From positions 1 to 43,116 of IMG/VR virus record IMGVR_UViG_3300025785_000939: DNA of 43,116 bases, one strand, 5' to 3'. This stretch comes from a virus. Shown in pieces: positions 15,010 through 42,447 of the stretch. The notes beneath the pieces were generated by a model, which saw nothing but the letters and a program-made list of their open reading frames with translations, had not been told where the DNA came from and did not search any database. How positions within the stretch are numbered: position 1 is the stretch's first letter; every line of letters begins with the position of its first letter. Made by a program: the position numbers and the translations under genes.

Positions 15010-15314
15010 CTATCGTTGATAGCAACTAATAGGCGGGCAAGACGAGGCTTCGACTGCCTCCTGGTCCACCACAGATACATTGGTTTCCATAGTCGGAACA
15101 AATATGGTGTAATAGGTTTTTCCGAACACCCGATGTATCTTTGATGGGCCAGCAAGGGATCGATTGACGTTGAAAGGGTTGAAGTAGATAGTAGGTTGGT
15201 TGCTTTATAGACCAAAAAAAGTAAATGCAGCGAATGATAACGCTCCATTTGAAATGCGCCTAGCGGCGTAATTCATTGGGTGGGCAACCAGCCTAGAAAC
15301 AGAAATGGTTGCAC
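15010..15314 (+). ncRNA. ssrA: Circularly permuted two-piece tmRNA
   Basis: The tRNA-like halves occur in swapped order. The acceptor piece comes first: T-arm stem GAGGC/GCCTC around loop TTCGACT (15044-15060), then CTGGTCC and ACCA (15061-15071). An intervening segment with an 11-bp hairpin (AGATACATTGG with CCGATGTATCT) follows. The coding piece then begins GGGCCAG (15146-15152), which pairs over all seven positions (one G-U) with CTGGTCC. Its tag frame, from GCA at 15227 to TAA at 15269-15271, reads AANDNAPFEMRLAA, a classic alphaproteobacterial-style tag ending LAA. The RNA rescues stalled ribosomes and marks the product for proteolysis. The exact ends are estimated from the promoter and terminator. 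Confidence 0.92.
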
Positions 15315-26161: not shown

Positions 26162-26485
26162 ATGAGCAAAATGAGCACAGACACCGCAACCAAATCTAAA
26201 GTTAAAATCGCACCACGTCTTGATTTAACTGCGCCACCGCGCTTTAAAGTTATTTTTATGAATGATAATGTAACAACTGTTCAGTTTGTCATGGCTGTAC
26301 TACAAGAAGTTTTTGATCATAATGAAGATAGTGCAATGATATTGACTGCTAGAATTCATGAAGAGGGTCAAGCAAGTGTTGCTGTTCTGCCATTTGAAAT
26401 TGCAGAAAGCAAGGCTGTAGAAGCAACGCTACTCGCTCGTACTAATAGTTTTCCACTCAATGTAAAGATTGAACCAGAAGTTTAA
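26162..26485 (+). CDS. clpS: ClpS adaptor protein
   Basis: 107 residues (E. coli ClpS is 106). PPRFKVIFMNDNVTTVQFVMAVLQEVFDHNEDSAMILTARIHEEGQASVAVLPFEIAESKAVEATLLA follows the ClpS fold: the Asn-Asp pair that binds the N-degron amino group (MND), the pocket helix and the conserved His (ARIHEEG) are present. ClpS hands N-degron substrates to ClpAP and inhibits ClpAP from degrading ssrA-tagged proteins. An in-frame ATG at 26171 is an alternative start. It converges with the metallophosphoesterase gene with a 4-nt overlap. Confidence 0.9.
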   Translation: MSKMSTDTATKSKVKIAPRLDLTAPPRFKVIFMNDNVTTVQFVMAVLQEVFDHNEDSAMILTARIHEEGQASVAVLPFEIAESKAVEATLLARTNSFPLNVKIEPEV

Positions 26486-28574: not shown

Positions 28575-29093
28575 ATGCCATCTAAAAAAGAACTTCCACA
28601 AGGTTATTATGTTTATGCACATTTAAGACAAGGTGATTTATTGCCATATTATATTGGCAAGGGTAAAGGAAGTAGAGCATGGAATACACATGGTAGGAGA
28701 CTACCAATACCATCTGATAAAAATAGAATACAAATTCTTGCTGATAATTTAACCGAAGAAGAAGCATTAGAACTTGAAAAGAAACTTATTGAGTCATATG
28801 GGCGTGAAGTCAACGGAACTGGTATTCTTTTTAATGTAACCAAAGGCGGCGAGGCGGGATTTTCTGATAACGATTACTATTACAAATATATTAGAAAGAA
28901 ACATCTTATTGGCATAGAGCAAGCAAAACTTGATGGACGTTATAGGGGGAGAGAACCTACTGCTAGAAGCCAATCTCAAAAAGTTTTGGATATGAAAGAA
29001 AAAAATTTTAATGTGCAAGAAATTATGTTAGAATGTAAAATAAGTCGTGCAAGTTATTATAGAATATTAAAGGATAATGCGACCTTAGCTTAA
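28575..29093 (+). CDS. GIY-YIG homing endonuclease (second copy) overlapping tRNA-Arg
   Basis: 172 residues. The GIY-YIG pair reads YYVYAHLRQGDLLPYYIGKGKGSRAW, close to the protein at 24876. The shared downstream block ILADNLTEEEALELEKKLIESYGR carries the conserved Glu. The C-terminus (KVLDMKEKNFNVQEIMLECKISRASYYRILKD) is a helix-turn-helix. Its last 15 bases form the 5' part of tRNA-Arg, so coding sequence and tRNA overlap. Probably a mobile free-standing endonuclease placed between a phage gene and a tRNA. Confidence 0.85.
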   Translation: MPSKKELPQGYYVYAHLRQGDLLPYYIGKGKGSRAWNTHGRRLPIPSDKNRIQILADNLTEEEALELEKKLIESYGREVNGTGILFNVTKGGEAGFSDNDYYYKYIRKKHLIGIEQAKLDGRYRGREPTARSQSQKVLDMKEKNFNVQEIMLECKISRASYYRILKDNATLA

Positions 29094-29155
29094 CGGTTAA
29101 AGCGGGTGTCTCTAAAACACCGACAATATGGGTTCAAATCCCATAGGACGCACCA
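29079..29155 (+). tRNA. tRNA-Arg (UCU)
   Basis: The anticodon stem GGTGT/ACACC encloses CTCTAAA, anticodon TCT. T-arm TATGG-GTTCAAAT-CCATA, and ACCA is encoded. The acceptor GCGACCT versus AGGACGC leaves an A-A mismatch at the fourth pair. The 5' end overlaps the GIY-YIG stop. It reads AGA/AGG codons. Confidence 0.85.
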
Positions 29156-36658: not shown

Positions 36659-36883
36659 ATGGATAATGTCATTGACTGTGGAAATATGTTTATTAACATG
36701 CGTATGATGACGATGGTAAAACGTTATCTACGTGATAGTGGCAAGGACAGTGAAGCCACCGTTGAGTTTTATCCTGATGAAGGTAGTCCAACTGGTATTG
36801 GTTTGATACTCGTTGATAGAAACGGTCATTCTAGAAAAATTAGTAACGATATCATTAATAATTTATTGACGAAAGTATCGTAA
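36659..36883 (+). CDS. Small hypothetical protein, 74 aa
   Basis: MDNVIDCGNMFINMRMMTMVKRYLRDSGKDSEATVEFYPDEGSPTGIGLILVDRNGHSRKISNDIINNLLTKVS, a small alpha/beta protein of unknown function. It begins 3 nt after the preceding gene, and its 3' end contains the -35 of the next promoter. Confidence 0.65.
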   Translation: MDNVIDCGNMFINMRMMTMVKRYLRDSGKDSEATVEFYPDEGSPTGIGLILVDRNGHSRKISNDIINNLLTKVS

Positions 36884-36894
36884 CCATATATAAT
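36866..36894 (+). promoter_or_regulatory. sigma70-like promoter of the epimerase gene
   Basis: TTGACG (36866-36871, inside the preceding ORF), 17-nt spacer, TATAAT (36889-36894), then a leader with GGAG before the TTG start. Confidence 0.75.
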
Positions 36895-36917
36895 AATATC
36901 AATAATCGGAGAACAAA

Positions 36918-37952
36918 TTGTCAAAGAACGTATTAGTTACGGGTGGTGCAGGTTTTATCGCTACCCATGTTATAGACCATATCCTTAAAACTACTGACTG
37001 GAATATTATTAGTCTTGATCGTTTAGATTTTAGCGGCAATCTTAACCGCCTAAACGATATGATGCAAGACCATAGCCCACAAACACGAGCACGTGTAAAG
37101 GTAATCTTTCATGATCTTAAGGCGGAAATTAACCCCCTTACGAAGACTCGTATTGGTCATGTTGATATTATTCTTCACCTTGCCGCTGGCAGTCACGTGG
37201 ATCGTAGTATCGATTATCCAATGGAATTCGTCATGGATAATGTGGTTGGAACTTGCAATATCCTTGAGTTTGCTCGTAAGTGTGATAATCTAGAACGCTT
37301 TGTATATTTCTCAACTGATGAAGTATTTGGTCCTGCACCCGTTGGCGTGAACTATGGTGAATATGATCGCTATAACAGCGGCAATCCATATAGCGCAGCC
37401 AAAGCGGGTGGTGAAGAACTTGCAGTGGCATATGAAAATACCTATGGTCTGCCTGTCTATGTAACGCATACTATGAACGTATTTGGTGAGCGTCAGCATC
37501 CAGAGAAGTTCATTCCTATGTGTATCCGCAAGGCTCGTGACGGTGAAACCATTACGGTTCATAGCGACAAGACACGCACTATTCCTGGCTCACGTCACTA
37601 TATCCATGCAAAGGATGTTGCCGAAGCCCTAATGTTCATTCTTGATCTCAAGGATTTCACAATGCCGCCAGAGTTTGGTGGAGCAAAGTGTCCTAAGTTT
37701 AACATCGTTGGTAAGCAAGAGATTAACAATCTTGAATTGGCACAGATTATTGCTGATAGTCAAGACAAGCCTCTTAACTATGAAATGGTTGATTTCCATT
37801 CTAGCCGTCCTGGTCATGATCTTCGCTATTCACTAAGTGGTGATTTTATGAAGTCACTTGGTTGGGAACCTAAGATTGAACTTACCGAACGCATCAAGCA
37901 AGTTGTTGATTGGACTCTCGCTCGTCCAGATTGGTTGAACCTTGATGTCTAA
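36918..37952 (+). CDS. NAD-dependent sugar epimerase/dehydratase (extended SDR)
   Basis: 344 residues, TTG start with GGAG 7-8 nt upstream. VLVTGGAGFIATHVIDHIL is the NAD Rossmann GxxGxxG. HLAAGSHVDRSIDYPMEFVMDNVVGT, FVYFSTDEVFGPAP and the catalytic YSAAKAGGEEL (Tyr-xxx-Lys) match dTDP-glucose 4,6-dehydratase-like proteins. It should act on a nucleotide sugar in the cytoplasm. A putative glycosyltransferase overlaps its 3' end, so a glycan or DNA-base modification pathway is plausible. The exact sugar cannot be decided. Confidence 0.9.
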   Translation: MSKNVLVTGGAGFIATHVIDHILKTTDWNIISLDRLDFSGNLNRLNDMMQDHSPQTRARVKVIFHDLKAEINPLTKTRIGHVDIILHLAAGSHVDRSIDYPMEFVMDNVVGTCNILEFARKCDNLERFVYFSTDEVFGPAPVGVNYGEYDRYNSGNPYSAAKAGGEELAVAYENTYGLPVYVTHTMNVFGERQHPEKFIPMCIRKARDGETITVHSDKTRTIPGSRHYIHAKDVAEALMFILDLKDFTMPPEFGGAKCPKFNIVGKQEINNLELAQIIADSQDKPLNYEMVDFHSSRPGHDLRYSLSGDFMKSLGWEPKIELTERIKQVVDWTLARPDWLNLDV

Positions 37953-38685
37953 GAAGAAAGCAGTTTCTAAAAAGTATGGGGTGTTCATCACCAGTGCTAT
38001 CAATGCTAAGTTTTCAATCTATAAGCCAGAAGAACGACTTGCTCAGACGCTAGAAACTATTAAAAGTGTTCGTGATCGTATTCCAAATGCTGTTATTTGC
38101 TTGACAGATTGCAGCCAACCTGGTATAAGTGATGATGTAAAGGCTCAACTTGTAGAACATGTTGATCACTTTGTAGATTTCAGTACGGATGAAAACGTAG
38201 TATGGATTCATGATACCATCGAAGTGCAAGATATTGTTAAGAATCTAACTGAACTTTCAGTAGTTCATAGTTTCTTTGAAATGGCACAGGAAGAAGGTTG
38301 GTTTGAGGGCTGTGATCGTATCTTCAAGGTAAGTGGTCGTTATATGCTTACTGATACGTTTAACACCGCAGATTATGAGAACGATATCGTTGGCGACAAG
38401 TATGTTGTTTCCAAGCGTATGTTAAGTCAGTTTGTGCCAGGTATTACTGGTGTAGATCAACAGCATATGTTGCGTGTTTATAGTTTTGGTGGCAATCGTA
38501 TTCCAGAGTTTATTCTACTTCTTGAAGACATGGTTGAACATATGCAAGACCGTGTTAATGCCGGTGGATATATAGATATTGAACATCTTTGGTATAAGTT
38601 CTTGCCAAAGGCGGATGTAGTAGAGTTTGCCCGAACTGGTGTTAAAGGTTTAGTAGCACCAAATGGACAAGCAATAGAAAATTGA
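37945..38685 (+). CDS. Putative glycosyltransferase-like protein, 246 aa
   Basis: ATG at 37945 overlaps the epimerase end. After a basic N-terminus (MSKKKAVSKKYGVF) comes VFITSAINAKFSIYKPEERLAQTLETIKSVRDRIPNAVICLTDCS, a Rossmann-like first half, then DRIFKVSGRYMLTDTFN. SGRY is common in glycosyltransferase-like proteins of phages. There is no classical DxD to confirm. Pairing with a sugar epimerase supports glycan synthesis. tRNA-Gln follows 5 nt after the stop. Confidence 0.6.
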   Translation: MSKKKAVSKKYGVFITSAINAKFSIYKPEERLAQTLETIKSVRDRIPNAVICLTDCSQPGISDDVKAQLVEHVDHFVDFSTDENVVWIHDTIEVQDIVKNLTELSVVHSFFEMAQEEGWFEGCDRIFKVSGRYMLTDTFNTADYENDIVGDKYVVSKRMLSQFVPGITGVDQQHMLRVYSFGGNRIPEFILLLEDMVEHMQDRVNAGGYIDIEHLWYKFLPKADVVEFARTGVKGLVAPNGQAIEN

Positions 38686-38690
38686 GTTAT

Positions 38691-38766
38691 TGGGGAGTGG
38701 TATAATTGGCAATACGCCTGACTTTGACTCAGGAGATTCCAGGTTCGATCCCTGGCTCCCCAACCA
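38691..38766 (+). tRNA. tRNA-Gln (UUG)
   Basis: The acceptor TGGGGAG pairs with CTCCCCA, and CCA is encoded. The anticodon stem CCTGA/TCAGG holds CTTTGAC, anticodon TTG. T-arm CCAGG-TTCGATC-CCTGG. Confidence 0.93.
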
Positions 38767-38794
38767 CTACAAAAAACAGTAAAGTGCCAATATT

Positions 38795-38836
38795 TTGACA
38801 CCCTTGTAATTACTAAATAATATTAGTTACAAGGGT
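38795..38836 (+). promoter_or_regulatory. Promoter of the curli operon with palindrome across the -10
   Basis: TTGACA (38795-38800), 17-nt spacer, TAATAT (38818-38823). Perfect 10-bp arms ACCCTTGTAA (38800-38809) and TTACAAGGGT (38827-38836) flank it. The 3' arm holds AAGGG, the ribosome binding site for the csgF ATG at 38843. CTAAATAATA is also present. Confidence 0.7.
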
Positions 38837-38842
38837 ATTATT

Positions 38843-39292
38843 ATGTGTAAAATTAGCGCAATTTGTGTATTTTTAATGACAGTTCCTACACTTGCACACG
38901 CAAGTGACATGACATTTGCATTTAAAAACCCGCAATTTAGTGGTGATGGATTCTCTAGTCATGTATTGACTATTGAAAACGAGGAATATACTCGTCGTCA
39001 ATCTCTTGCTGCTCAGAAAAAAGCAGATGCAGATGCAGCCGCAGCAGCGGCTAGTAACACCAATTTAAATAAATTTCTCAACAATCTGGAAAGCCGCATC
39101 TACGCACAGTTAAGTTTGCAACTTAGCAATGCTATGTTTAGCGATGGATCAACTACTGGAACTATGCAATTTGAAGGCAGCACTATCTCTTGGATCAAGG
39201 ATAGCACTGCTCAGACTATCGCCTTAACGGTAATTGATGCTACTGGCAATCGTACAGATATCACAGTTCCAATAGGGAGTTTCAAGTTCTAA
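38843..39292 (+). CDS. csgF: CsgF-like curli assembly factor
   Basis: 149 residues. A signal peptide (MCKISAICVFLMTVPTLAHA) precedes SDMTFAFKNPQFSGDGFSSHVL, matching the conserved N-terminal CsgF segment (T-F-FxNPxFGG) that binds and constricts the CsgG pore. The rest has an Ala-rich linker, LNKFLNNLESRIYAQLSLQLSNAMF and a beta tail with ALTVIDATGNRTDITVPIGSF, as in CsgF. E. coli CsgF is 138 residues. It would be exported and anchor curli nucleation at the outer membrane. It overlaps the csgG start (TAATG). First gene of the curli cassette. Confidence 0.88.
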   Translation: MCKISAICVFLMTVPTLAHASDMTFAFKNPQFSGDGFSSHVLTIENEEYTRRQSLAAQKKADADAAAAAASNTNLNKFLNNLESRIYAQLSLQLSNAMFSDGSTTGTMQFEGSTISWIKDSTAQTIALTVIDATGNRTDITVPIGSFKF

Positions 39293-40113
39293 TGTATAAA
39301 TTTATCGTATCAATGATTATAACCACGTTACTGGCAGCATGTAGCACTGTGCAGCCATATGAAGCAAAAGTACCAACAGCAGCAAGCAATATGCCGCAGA
39401 AGGTAACAAAGAGTTATTATAATGAATTAGCAAATATGCCACCACCAGATGGGCAACCAATTACTATTGCTATGTATGGGTTTGGTGATAAAACTGGACA
39501 GCGTAAAGAAAACGATAAGTTTTCTGTGTTAAGCAGTGCTGTCACACAAGGCGGAGAAGTATTTCTTATTAAGGCGTTGCAAGATGCAGGTCATAGTAAA
39601 TGGTTCCAAGTTGTAGAACGTGTTGGCTTAGATGATCTTATTAAAGAGCGTCAATTAATTCGCAACCAACGTGAAACCTATGAAGGAAAAGATGCTAAGC
39701 CGTTATCACCAATGCTTATTGCTGGTGTTATGGTGGAGGGTGGTATCGTAGGTTACGATACTAATGTACAAAGTGGTGGCAATGGCGCTGCCATGTTAGG
39801 AATAGGCGTAAATCAACAATATAGAACCGACGAGGTTACTGTGATTGTAAGATTGATAAGTGTTCATACTGGTGAAGTATTAATCTCTGCTGGTGCCACA
39901 AAAACAATCTTAAGCACAGGCGGAAGTGGCACAGTGGTCACTTTTTTAGACCAGAGCACGATGAGTTTACAAGTCGAATCTGGTGCAAATGTCAACGAAC
40001 CCACCACATATGCCGTGCGTCTGGCAACAGAAGCAGCGGTTGTGGATATGATCAAACAGGGTGTTCAAAAGAATTTGTGGAGTTACGCGACTCTTAAAAA
40101 GAAGGCGTCGTAA
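39292..40113 (+). CDS. csgG: CsgG-like outer-membrane curli secretion channel (lipoprotein)
   Basis: 273 residues (E. coli CsgG is 277). The lipobox LLAAC puts the acylated Cys at residue 17. The body has the CsgG order: ITIAMYGFGDKTGQRK, SSAVTQGGEVFLIKALQDAG, FQVVERVGLDDLIKERQLIR (conserved), LIAGVMVEGGIVGYDTNVQSGG, and VTVIVRLISVHTGEVLISAGATKTILS for the beta-barrel strand. It forms the nonameric ungated pore through which curlin subunits leave the cell. It lies between csgF and the curlin genes. Confidence 0.93.
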   Translation: MYKFIVSMIITTLLAACSTVQPYEAKVPTAASNMPQKVTKSYYNELANMPPPDGQPITIAMYGFGDKTGQRKENDKFSVLSSAVTQGGEVFLIKALQDAGHSKWFQVVERVGLDDLIKERQLIRNQRETYEGKDAKPLSPMLIAGVMVEGGIVGYDTNVQSGGNGAAMLGIGVNQQYRTDEVTVIVRLISVHTGEVLISAGATKTILSTGGSGTVVTFLDQSTMSLQVESGANVNEPTTYAVRLATEAAVVDMIKQGVQKNLWSYATLKKKAS

Positions 40114-40135
40114 AACTCCTTAAAGGAGTAGGCAG

Positions 40136-40822
40136 TTGAAAAACTTTATGAAAGCCGCAATTAGTATTGTGGGTATTATGCTGGCAAGTCAAAGTTTTGC
40201 TGGTACGATTAACAATGTTTATATCGACCAGGTTGGTAGCGGAAGCACTATCACACTAAATCAACAAGGGTCAAATAACGAAATTGGTAACGACACTACC
40301 GCAACTACCTTACACGGAAATGGACAAACAGTAAGCATTTCACAAGTTGGTAGTAATAATACGCATGTTATCAATGTCCAAGGAACCAATACCACTTTAA
40401 ATAGTGTTGTAACTGGTGATAATAATAATACAACGGTTGCGTGTGGCGCTGCTCCAAGCAGCAGTTGTACTGATACTGCTATTACCGCTAATGTCACAGG
40501 TAATACCAACAACACAAATATTACTGCTGGTTCTAAAAGCACAATTACTGCAGTTGTTGCTGGCAGCACTAACAATACTACAATTAACAGCACCACTACA
40601 AACCTAATGGGCGCTGGCGTTGATGTCAAAGAAACTGGCGATACAAACGTGGTAAATATAAGTCAGAACGGACCAGCAGGTGCTAATGGCTTTGTGTCAA
40701 AAGTTGAAGTAACTGGTGCGAGCAACAACGTGGCGGTGACTCAAAGTGGCACAACTGATAGCACAGTCAATATTAAGAGCACTGGTTCTAATAACAGTAT
40801 TTCTGTTACCAGCGGCAACTAA
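40136..40822 (+). CDS. Curlin-repeat protein (CsgA/CsgB-like), major
   Basis: 228 residues, TTG start with AAGGAG 6-7 nt upstream and signal peptide MKNFMKAAISIVGIMLASQSFA. Curlin-like repeats of the form IxQxGxxNxxxxxQ occur throughout: VYIDQVGSGSTITLNQQGSNNEI, VSISQVGSNNTHVINVQGTNTTL, VNISQNGPAGANG and VAVTQSGTTDSTVNIKSTGSNN. A CAAPSSSC segment with two Cys sits in the middle. Such proteins are secreted and polymerise into amyloid. Its 3' end overlaps the next gene by 77 nt in another frame. Confidence 0.87.
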   Translation: MKNFMKAAISIVGIMLASQSFAGTINNVYIDQVGSGSTITLNQQGSNNEIGNDTTATTLHGNGQTVSISQVGSNNTHVINVQGTNTTLNSVVTGDNNNTTVACGAAPSSSCTDTAITANVTGNTNNTNITAGSKSTITAVVAGSTNNTTINSTTTNLMGAGVDVKETGDTNVVNISQNGPAGANGFVSKVEVTGASNNVAVTQSGTTDSTVNIKSTGSNNSISVTSGN

Positions 40823-41858
40823 TGCTGCTATCGGAACTGTTACTGAACAAACAGGTCCAACAGAAATACAACGTGAAAAACAAAGCATACCAAGTAATAT
40901 AAACAGCGGCGTCGAAATGAATGACGCCGTTGTTACTGCTAAAGCAAGAGTTGGTATTACATTTGAAGATGATACCAAGGTTGAAATAACCGAACAAAGC
41001 AAACTTGTTATTGATGATTTCGTATATGATCCTAAAAATAGTGATGCTGGCAAATTAGGACTTAAGGTTGCTATCGGAACTGCTCGTTATGCTAGCGGTC
41101 AAATTGCCAAAGATAATCCACAAAGTGTGAAGATTGAAACTCCTACTGCTACAATTGGTGTGCGTGGAACAGATTTTAGTATGACCGTTGATGAATTAGG
41201 TCGCAGTCTTATTGTGCTGTTGCCAAGTTGTCCAGTAGGTTATAAGAATATTGATAAAGACTGCATTACTGGCAAGATTGATGTGACTACCGACATGGGA
41301 ACAGTGCATCTTGACAAACCATTTCAGGCAACTTCTACAAGTGCCAAAGAACAAAATCCAACCAAGCCTGTTATTCTTAACTTAAGCACAGAACAAATCA
41401 ATAATATGCTTATCCTACAACCGCCTAAGAAAGCAGCAGAAGAACAAACTACAACAAAAACTGCACTTGATGTTAATTTTCTTGATAAAGATTTCTTAAA
41501 GTTTGATGAATTGGATATAAATTATCTAACAGCATTTGACAAATTAAGTGTTAATAATCTTGATGTTGTGTTCTTGGCTAATATGTTAGACCTTGCCAAT
41601 GCTTCGTTACTAGCAAGTATGTTAGGTGGTGAAAACCAAATGCTGCCACAATATGCCCCAAACAAACAGGCAGGATTGAAGTATGTCAAGATAGATTCTT
41701 CACTCACACTATATCGTCAAGGCGGTAACAGTTATACTCAATTGACTGTAGATAAGGATAGTCCAACTACTCTTAACCTAAATCAGGATGGGGTAAATAT
41801 GACACAGCATGTTCAACATCCTGGTGGCAGCGTAATAACCATCACTCAAGGAAATTAA
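40746..41858 (+). CDS. FecR-domain protein with curlin-like C-terminus
   Basis: 370 residues from a GTG at 40746. CTG and other alternatives exist, and no strong ribosome binding site is seen. The N-terminus (ILRALVLITVFLLPAATNA) is a signal peptide encoded within the 77-nt overlap with the curlin gene. AIGTVTEQTGPTEIQREKQSIPSNINSGVEMNDAVVTAKARVGITFEDDTKVEI and TPTATIGVRGTDFSMTV form the FecR-type domain. The last 55 residues (SLTLYRQGGNSYTQLTVDKDSPTTLNLNQDGVNMTQHVQHPGGSVITITQGN) resemble curlin repeats. It may be a periplasmic or surface partner of curli assembly. FecR-domain proteins elsewhere sense or bind cell-surface components. Confidence 0.8.
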   Translation: MAQLIAQSILRALVLITVFLLPAATNAAIGTVTEQTGPTEIQREKQSIPSNINSGVEMNDAVVTAKARVGITFEDDTKVEITEQSKLVIDDFVYDPKNSDAGKLGLKVAIGTARYASGQIAKDNPQSVKIETPTATIGVRGTDFSMTVDELGRSLIVLLPSCPVGYKNIDKDCITGKIDVTTDMGTVHLDKPFQATSTSAKEQNPTKPVILNLSTEQINNMLILQPPKKAAEEQTTTKTALDVNFLDKDFLKFDELDINYLTAFDKLSVNNLDVVFLANMLDLANASLLASMLGGENQMLPQYAPNKQAGLKYVKIDSSLTLYRQGGNSYTQLTVDKDSPTTLNLNQDGVNMTQHVQHPGGSVITITQGN

Positions 41859-41859
41859 T

Positions 41860-42447
41860 ATGAAACGTTTGTTATTCTTACTATGGATTACACCCGTTGC
41901 TGCACAAAGTTTAAGTGCTACTAGTAGCGGACCTGGCTTATCCATGCCAACGCTACCACGTGGATCATCTGTATATATTGACCAAGTTGGTAATGGTAAT
42001 AATATATTTGTAGAACAAGTTACAGGTGGCACACCACAGGCAACCATTCTTAATCAAGGTGATAACAATAATCTAACCATCGTGCAAGAGGGTAGCGGTG
42101 ATCATCAGGCATTTATAGGAACGCCACCAACTGGCATGGGATTGAATGCAACACTGAATACTAATACAAGTGCTGCTAACAATAACAATAATACACTTAC
42201 TATCTTACAAAATGGTAGTGGAAATCATACTGCTGCTATTAACTTAGATGCTTCCACATCAAATAATAATAACATTGCCACCATTACCCAAACTGGCGAT
42301 GCTAATAAGAATTTTACTCTTAATCTAAGTGGAAGCGGAATTGGTGCAACCGTATTGCAAGATAATCCATTAACGCCTGATAGTGGAAGCATGAGCATAC
42401 AATGTTTAACGCCGCCTTGTTCTGGATACAGTTACACAAAACATTAA
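41860..42447 (+). CDS. Second curlin-repeat protein (CsgB/CsgA-like)
   Basis: 195 residues with a short signal peptide (MKRLLFLLWITPVAAQS). Curlin-like repeats: VYIDQVGNGNNIFVEQVTGG, ATILNQGDNNNLTIVQEGSGDHQAF, LTILQNGSGNHTAAINL and ATITQTGDANKNFTL. It ends in a Cys-containing tail (CLTPPCSGYSYTKH). The start follows the FecR stop by 1 nt. It may be the nucleator or minor subunit of the curli pair. Confidence 0.85.
   Translation: MKRLLFLLWITPVAAQSLSATSSGPGLSMPTLPRGSSVYIDQVGNGNNIFVEQVTGGTPQATILNQGDNNNLTIVQEGSGDHQAFIGTPPTGMGLNATLNTNTSAANNNNNTLTILQNGSGNHTAAINLDASTSNNNNIATITQTGDANKNFTLNLSGSGIGATVLQDNPLTPDSGSMSIQCLTPPCSGYSYTKH

Follow-up and report, generated by a model that had tools for sequence, protein, structure and literature searches.

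Curli genes of phages were reported in part (CsgF, CsgG) in 2020 (PMC7029224). In 2022, the order CsgF-CsgG-CsgA/B-FecR-CsgA/B-adenylate cyclase was described for marine podo- and myophages and found at all 65 ocean stations analysed (PMC9599517), and curli genes are likewise described in the OM43 phage Melnitz (PMC9004378). Here, we analyse the curli cassette at positions 38795-42447 of the IMG/VR virus record IMGVR_UViG_3300025785_000939, a linear record of 43,116 bases from an aquatic bacterial virus, which was studied at its full length and is termed the window.

The cassette is real, ordinary in kind, and belongs to this published class. The initial annotation of the window had rightly pointed to curli genes in pelagimyophage-like genomes (PMC7029224, PMC9599517, PMC9004378); the five-gene order with FecR, which it took to be less explored, had been published for marine pelagiphages in 2022 (PMC9599517). 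Three features are new. Relatives of the cassette lie in T4-like contigs of up to 364 kb, csgF is preceded by a probable T4-type hairpin switch, and the FecR protein is exported, with a curlin-like C-terminus and a signal peptide overprinted on curlin 1. In the literature searched, which covered few subscription papers, neither curli genes of jumbo phages nor an RNA switch before such a cassette were found to be described. Judged from sequence, the cassette is fairly probably a phage copy of an alphaproteobacterial-type curli operon, which would be expressed late and make amyloid on the infected cell.

The curli cassette and its relatives

The genes csgF, csgG, curlin 1, FecR, and curlin 2 span 38843-42447, all on the + strand and in the order first annotated. 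Profile searches place CsgF, CsgG, FecR, and curlin 2 above the Pfam cut-off; curlin 1 has a sub-threshold match and a solenoid model.

csgF (38843-39292, + strand; PF10614, expectation value E=4.2e-15) encodes the exported partner of CsgG. Its N-terminus contains the conserved plug motif MTFxFKNPxFSG and matches the PDB CsgF of the CsgG-CsgF complex. csgG (39292-40113, + strand; PF03783, E=6.6e-46) encodes the outer-membrane lipoprotein pore of type VIII secretion and matches E. coli CsgG (PDB 3x2r) with E=6e-44. Its lipobox is LLAAC, and the lipobox Cys is invariant in 85/85 phage sequences. An unusual pore constriction was considered as a phage trait and rejected, as Y51, N55, and F56 are mostly missing from alphaproteobacterial CsgG too. 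In several jumbo phages, CsgG has a C-terminal bacterial SH3 domain (L116 6001-7125, L157 5881-7125, L124 5890-7023; ~375-415 amino acids in total), which possibly ties the pore to the cell wall. In a 338-kb phage (L009 4981-5511), an exported CHAP/NlpC-type cell-wall hydrolase lies directly 5' of csgF and perhaps opens the wall for the pore.

Curlin 1 (40136-40822, + strand) is CsgA/B-like and has a Sec signal; its match to PF07012 (Curlin_rpt) has E=0.006. With an alignment of 30 relatives as input, AlphaFold2 confidently predicts a beta-solenoid (predicted local distance difference test 90.9, predicted template modelling score 0.88), and the Q and G repeat positions are invariant in this alignment. 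A search of this fold against the PDB gave no significant match, and the weak ones are mostly beta-helices. Curlin 2 (41860-42447, + strand; PF07012, E=2.1e-9 over 3 stretches) has three to four curlin repeats.

Compared with diverged relatives, and wherever the synonymous rate (dS) is measurable, the ratio of nonsynonymous to synonymous substitution rates (dN/dS) lies at 0.08-0.19 in each of the five genes, with 0.12-0.19 for csgF and 0.09-0.11 for curlin 2. The genes are under purifying selection, and hence the cassette is not decaying. PHROGs families exist for CsgF, CsgG, and FecR, all three with unknown function. The initial annotation saw no csgE, and the CsgE model has no match in any of the 19 records; CsgD was not searched for. 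According to PMC9599517, alphaproteobacterial modules lack CsgE and CsgD as well; the missing CsgE thus excludes the gammaproteobacterial form only.

A viral scan gave at least 579 confirmed relatives, of which 80 were kept. Practically all phage loci with sufficient flank show the order csgF-csgG-curlin-FecR. A CHASE2-adenylate/guanylate cyclase gene is present in 16/19 records tested, including every large relative tested, and thus the cassette is not self-contained as first described. In two large phage contigs, G004 (IMGVR_UViG_3300025789_001072, 130.7 kb) and G007 (338 kb), this cyclase lies a few kb past curlin 2, beyond inserted genes. The window ends before this position, which is most likely why it has no cyclase.

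The equivalent pelagiphage modules (PMC7029224, PMC9599517) share the order CsgF-CsgG-CsgA/B-FecR-CsgA/B followed by the CHASE2 cyclase; CsgC, CsgD, and CsgE are not reported there, and in the tree their CsgG falls on the window's side. The window and its relatives form a separate supported clade. Unlike the pelagiphage modules, they sit in T4-like contigs of up to 364 kb, show no histidine kinase in front, and have the cyclase behind inserted genes. They also differ in the overprinted FecR signal peptide and, in many, the putative late switch. Melnitz (L017) has the same operon, with 49% identity in csgG and 38% in FecR. It is described as lacking csgA/B (PMC9004378), although its sequence record lists two curlin-repeat proteins along with FecR. 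In the cultured pelagimyophage HTVC008M, FecR and a PA14-domain curlin-repeat protein (L016 7483-8589 and 8561-9886) are both annotated as hypothetical.

In the CsgG phylogeny, 43 phage-type rows and the Hyphomonas sp. TMED17 sequence (L033) are separate from 27 bacterial rows, with a Shimodaira-Hasegawa-like approximate likelihood ratio of 99; the tree is from a short search, and the placement of L033, on a long branch, is unsure. The L033 operon is chromosomal, on a 705-kb contig, and reads CsgF-CsgG-curlin-FecR-CHASE2 cyclase. Hence, FecR and the cyclase occur together in at least one cellular operon. Its CsgF has the phage-type N-terminus. In contrast to the window, it has one large curlin and a FecR tail that is not clearly curlin-like, and no hairpin was found.

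Phage-type cassettes also occur in eight contigs binned as Pelagibacter, Rhodobacteraceae, Flavobacteriaceae, Synechococcus, and others (L021, L022, L024, L025, L028, L031, L036, L043), which are probably phage contigs misbinned into metagenome-assembled genomes. A 1,499-base entry under the name Salmonella phage S.Kent 1-2-1 (OR851715.1) encodes, at 226-960, a CsgG relative with 38% identity; this entry is likely host sequence submitted as phage.

The hairpin and the TAAATA motif before csgF

A hairpin lies over the csgF ribosome-binding site (38801-38835, + strand). Its left arm CCCTTGTAATTA and right arm TAGTTACAAGGG enclose a loop with TAAATA (38814-38819, + strand), the core motif of T4-type late promoters, and the right arm carries a Shine-Dalgarno-like AAGGG eight bases before the csgF ATG. 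The RNA fold has -19.1 kcal/mol (z -4.0) with 12-13 pairs, and a predicted RNA starting in the loop leaves the ribosome site unpaired. T4 has late-translation hairpins of this kind: the mechanism has been shown for gene e, and soc, 49, and I-TevI are described as further cases (PMC3014915). As in these, the late-promoter core of the window is in the helix that hides the ribosome-binding site; unlike them, the hairpin precedes a curli operon.

The initial annotation gave the cassette a promoter of its own, a palindromic TTGACA-N17-TAATAT. These letters are present at 38795-38823 and the palindrome is real, but a sigma-70 promoter is a poor reading of them, as the region has 34 such sites against 20.5 expected and an exact TTGACA is confined to the window's own close clade. 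An ordinary operator palindrome or a sigma-70 promoter, with the cassette expressed early, would agree with the conservation of TTGACA at 17-18 nucleotide (nt) spacing within that clade. In diverged relatives, however, TTGACA is gone, whereas TAAATA and the stem pairing persist while the stem sequence changes, which makes this explanation quite improbable. This region is better read as a putative T4-type late promoter inside a hairpin that would hide the ribosome site.

TAAATA is at most 48 nt upstream of csgF in 56/67 distinct phage loci, against 93/599 (15.5%) for other open reading frames (ORFs). The motif is specific to one strand, with an enrichment before genes both in the window (11 against 3.2) and in G004 (43 against 12.9); this enrichment and strand bias are what suggest a late promoter. 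The same hairpin plan with different stem sequences is found in L009, L012, L106, L115, L119, and L130, and the L106 hairpin, for example, is AAAGCCTCCAGA(TAAATACT)TCTGGAGGCTTTCATG. Among TAAATA-bearing genes, strong stems are present in 30% of csgF, in 0/93 of the others, and in 1% of shuffles. When wider loops are allowed and sequences are clustered at 90% CsgG identity, the strong csgF stems amount to 17/44 against 1% expected; clustering at 80% identity leaves 5/25 (p=5e-7). With wider loops, strong stems were seen in 3/92 other genes, namely two homologous endonuclease ORFs (GIY-YIG by inspection) and the window tail gene at 1306.

We also compared the pairing of the ribosome site in a long RNA with that in an RNA starting after TAAATA. 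The drop is 0.27 for csgF and 0.09 for other genes (Mann-Whitney p=3e-4), and a switch-like pairing change is seen in 15/52 csgF against 1/32 other genes. The arrangement of the T4-type switch, with the promoter core placed in the helix that covers the ribosome-binding site, is present in the window and in a minority of its diverged relatives. Pelagiphage-type loci often have TAAATA without a strong stem. For HTVC008M and Melnitz, no strong hairpin is predicted.

Two observations concern hairpins at other genes. At 1245-1311 of the window, a TAAATA-loop hairpin directly precedes the gene of a 1116-amino-acid tail-spike-like protein and is a second candidate late switch. In two relatives (L006 1821-2480, L007 2291-2900), a homing-endonuclease-like ORF (GIY-YIG by inspection) lies between a tRNA and csgF and has its own strong hairpin over its start. 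Homing endonucleases of T4 are known to have a hairpin over the start.

The FecR protein and its overlap with curlin 1

The FecR-domain protein (40746-41858, + strand; PF04773, E=1.3e-9) has no other Pfam domain above the cut-off. It begins with a Sec signal peptide, and its AlphaFold2 model shows a domain resembling FecR, then a disordered linker, and finally six curlin-like strands at the C-terminus. A cytoplasmic N-terminus followed by a single transmembrane segment, as in anti-sigma FecR, is not seen; the protein is unlike this type because a cleavable Sec signal directly precedes the FecR domain. In Foldseek, the model matches the PupR signalling domain 6ovk (E=2e-4) and Parabacteroides anti-sigma factors, and more weakly the cell-surface anchoring domain 5ix9 (E=0.01, root-mean-square deviation 0.9 over 61 columns). 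The FecR profile has no match among PDB sequences.

In a single pairwise hhalign comparison, the tails of FecR and curlin 1 align from end to end (E=6e-4, with a probability of 28%). Neither the FecR domain nor the linker gave a match in hhalign, and the tail gave no signal with bacterial curlins. These results suggest a curlin-like tail but do not prove it.

The last curlin-1 repeat and the FecR signal peptide share 77 nt in two frames (40746-40822, + strand). This overlap is typically 59-77 nt in two clades, that of the window and that of the jumbo phages; the extremes, from 158 nt to none, mostly come from how the mechanical ORF caller chose start codons. Where the loci are of pelagiphage type, curlin 1 and FecR abut or overlap by at most 44 nt (-57 to +44 nt).

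In a Burkholderia biofilm operon, a FecR protein with a signal peptide is paired with a CHASE2 sensor (PMC5192318). Because of this precedent, the signal peptide, the domain model, and the curlin-like tail, the FecR protein is probably an exported curli partner, i.e., an anchor, nucleator, or sensor, and not an obvious iron regulator. In another proposal (PMC9599517), the pore would import solutes such as iron or vitamins, and FecR would be an iron-linked regulator; the name FecR and a CsgG without a CsgE gate would fit. This proposal is at odds with the cleavable signal peptide, the lack of a cytoplasmic anti-sigma part, and the curlin-like C-terminal strands, and it leaves two maintained curlins unexplained. 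Moreover, in a search of 289 alphaproteobacterial genomes, the nearest cellular matches of FecR fall mostly within very large proteins (open frames of up to 6,900 amino acids). We regard solute import as very improbable.

Carrier phages and the role of the cassette

A host-phage chimera with a junction at 38.7-38.9 kb, a possibility raised in the initial annotation, is ruled out. The window and the independent phage contig G004 align nearly end to end, and the G004 block, 88% identical to window 36659-41903, runs unbroken through the suspected junction. Among the phage genes of the two contigs are those for a tail spike, a lysozyme-fusion protein, ribonucleotide reductase, a baseplate wedge, a replicative helicase, and a tail-fibre attachment catalyst. 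The T4-type capsid protein Gp23 is present in ten large cassette-bearing records, including G007, which also has a terminase. By these genes, the carriers are T4-like; many of them, on contigs of 278-364 kb, reach jumbo size.

Directly upstream of the cassette, tRNA-Gln(TTG) (38691-38766, + strand; ARAGORN and Rfam) serves as a boundary marker and is not a cassette gene. The window also has a tRNA with anticodon CTA at 29079-29155 (Pyl in ARAGORN), a possible amber suppressor, and a permuted transfer-messenger RNA (tmRNA) gene at 15011-15271 (+ strand). The homologue in G004 (L188 1595-1941, - strand) fits the alphaproteobacterial tmRNA family of Rfam, which is a weak hint at the host. A two-piece tmRNA is found in Melnitz as well. 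With the phage-encoded ClpS adaptor of the window (26162-26485) and an ATP-dependent, ClpA-like protease subunit in G004 (L184 1175-3409, - strand), the tmRNA makes up a phage set of parts for proteolysis targeting.

In the mechanism we favour, early read-through RNA would fold and hide the csgF ribosome-binding site, whereas late RNA from the TAAATA in the loop would lack the left arm and allow csgF translation. CsgG and CsgF would then form an outer-membrane pore with a plug. The two curlins would be exported via Sec and then CsgG, and would form surface amyloid on the infected cell as it dies. FecR would be exported to the periplasm or surface, where its curlin-like tail probably contacts curlin; it may act as an anchor, a nucleator, or a sensor feeding the downstream CHASE2 cyclase. 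As a conjecture, the benefit would be that uninfected siblings are kept close for the burst. The clustering of cells for the next infection round, suggested in the initial annotation, corresponds to the published idea of "sibling capture" (PMC7029224).

Several points weigh against this mechanism. Strong hairpins are found in a minority of phage csgF (5/25 clusters at 80% identity), and the rest have TAAATA with a weak stem or none. TAAATA is not directly 5' of the capsid gene in most jumbo relatives; only G013 has it directly before gp23. The model of the gp33 co-activator has a match in 1/14 records, and the late sigma factor was not searched for. Furthermore, curlin 1 stays below the Pfam cut-off, the CsgE gate is missing, and infection with Melnitz, which has the cassette, led to no observed clumping in culture (PMC9004378).

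For Melnitz, a lysis-timing device was proposed instead (PMC9004378), in which the CsgG-CsgF pore would be pinholin- or secretin-like and the curlins cargo or leftovers. The lack of clumping fits this proposal, late expression would fit it too, and T4 uses the same hairpin switch for its lysozyme gene e (PMC3014915). However, selection on curlin 1, FecR, and curlin 2 is as strong as on the pore genes, and these genes are retained in virtually every phage cassette. Outer-membrane CsgG is also unable by itself to depolarise the inner membrane. We consider a lysis device unlikely.

Surface-sugar genes adjoin the cassette, with an epimerase at 36918-37952 and a glycosyltransferase downstream. They would suit superinfection exclusion or surface change, a listed hypothesis (PMC9599517) in which a curli coat or the outer-membrane pore blocks competing phages. 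A late-only switch would leave the early vulnerable phase uncovered, and we find exclusion rather unlikely.

For large T4-like phages, the late-expression mechanism can tentatively be extended. Curli would stay silent until the end of infection through a gene e-style RNA switch, whose pairing is kept while its sequence has changed in a widespread lineage. The FecR-curlin hybrid and the CHASE2 cyclase would anchor or sense the fibre, and the amyloid would be timed with lysis; this is possible but far from settled.

The question of what curli do for phages dates from 2020, and a late-only switch would narrow the answer. Early functions, superinfection exclusion and nutrient import among them, would become less likely, and those linked to lysis or to the release and capture of progeny would gain in likelihood. 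The switch would also open the timing to direct testing in cultured phages that bear the cassette, and FecR deserves study as an exported curli partner rather than as a presumed iron regulator.

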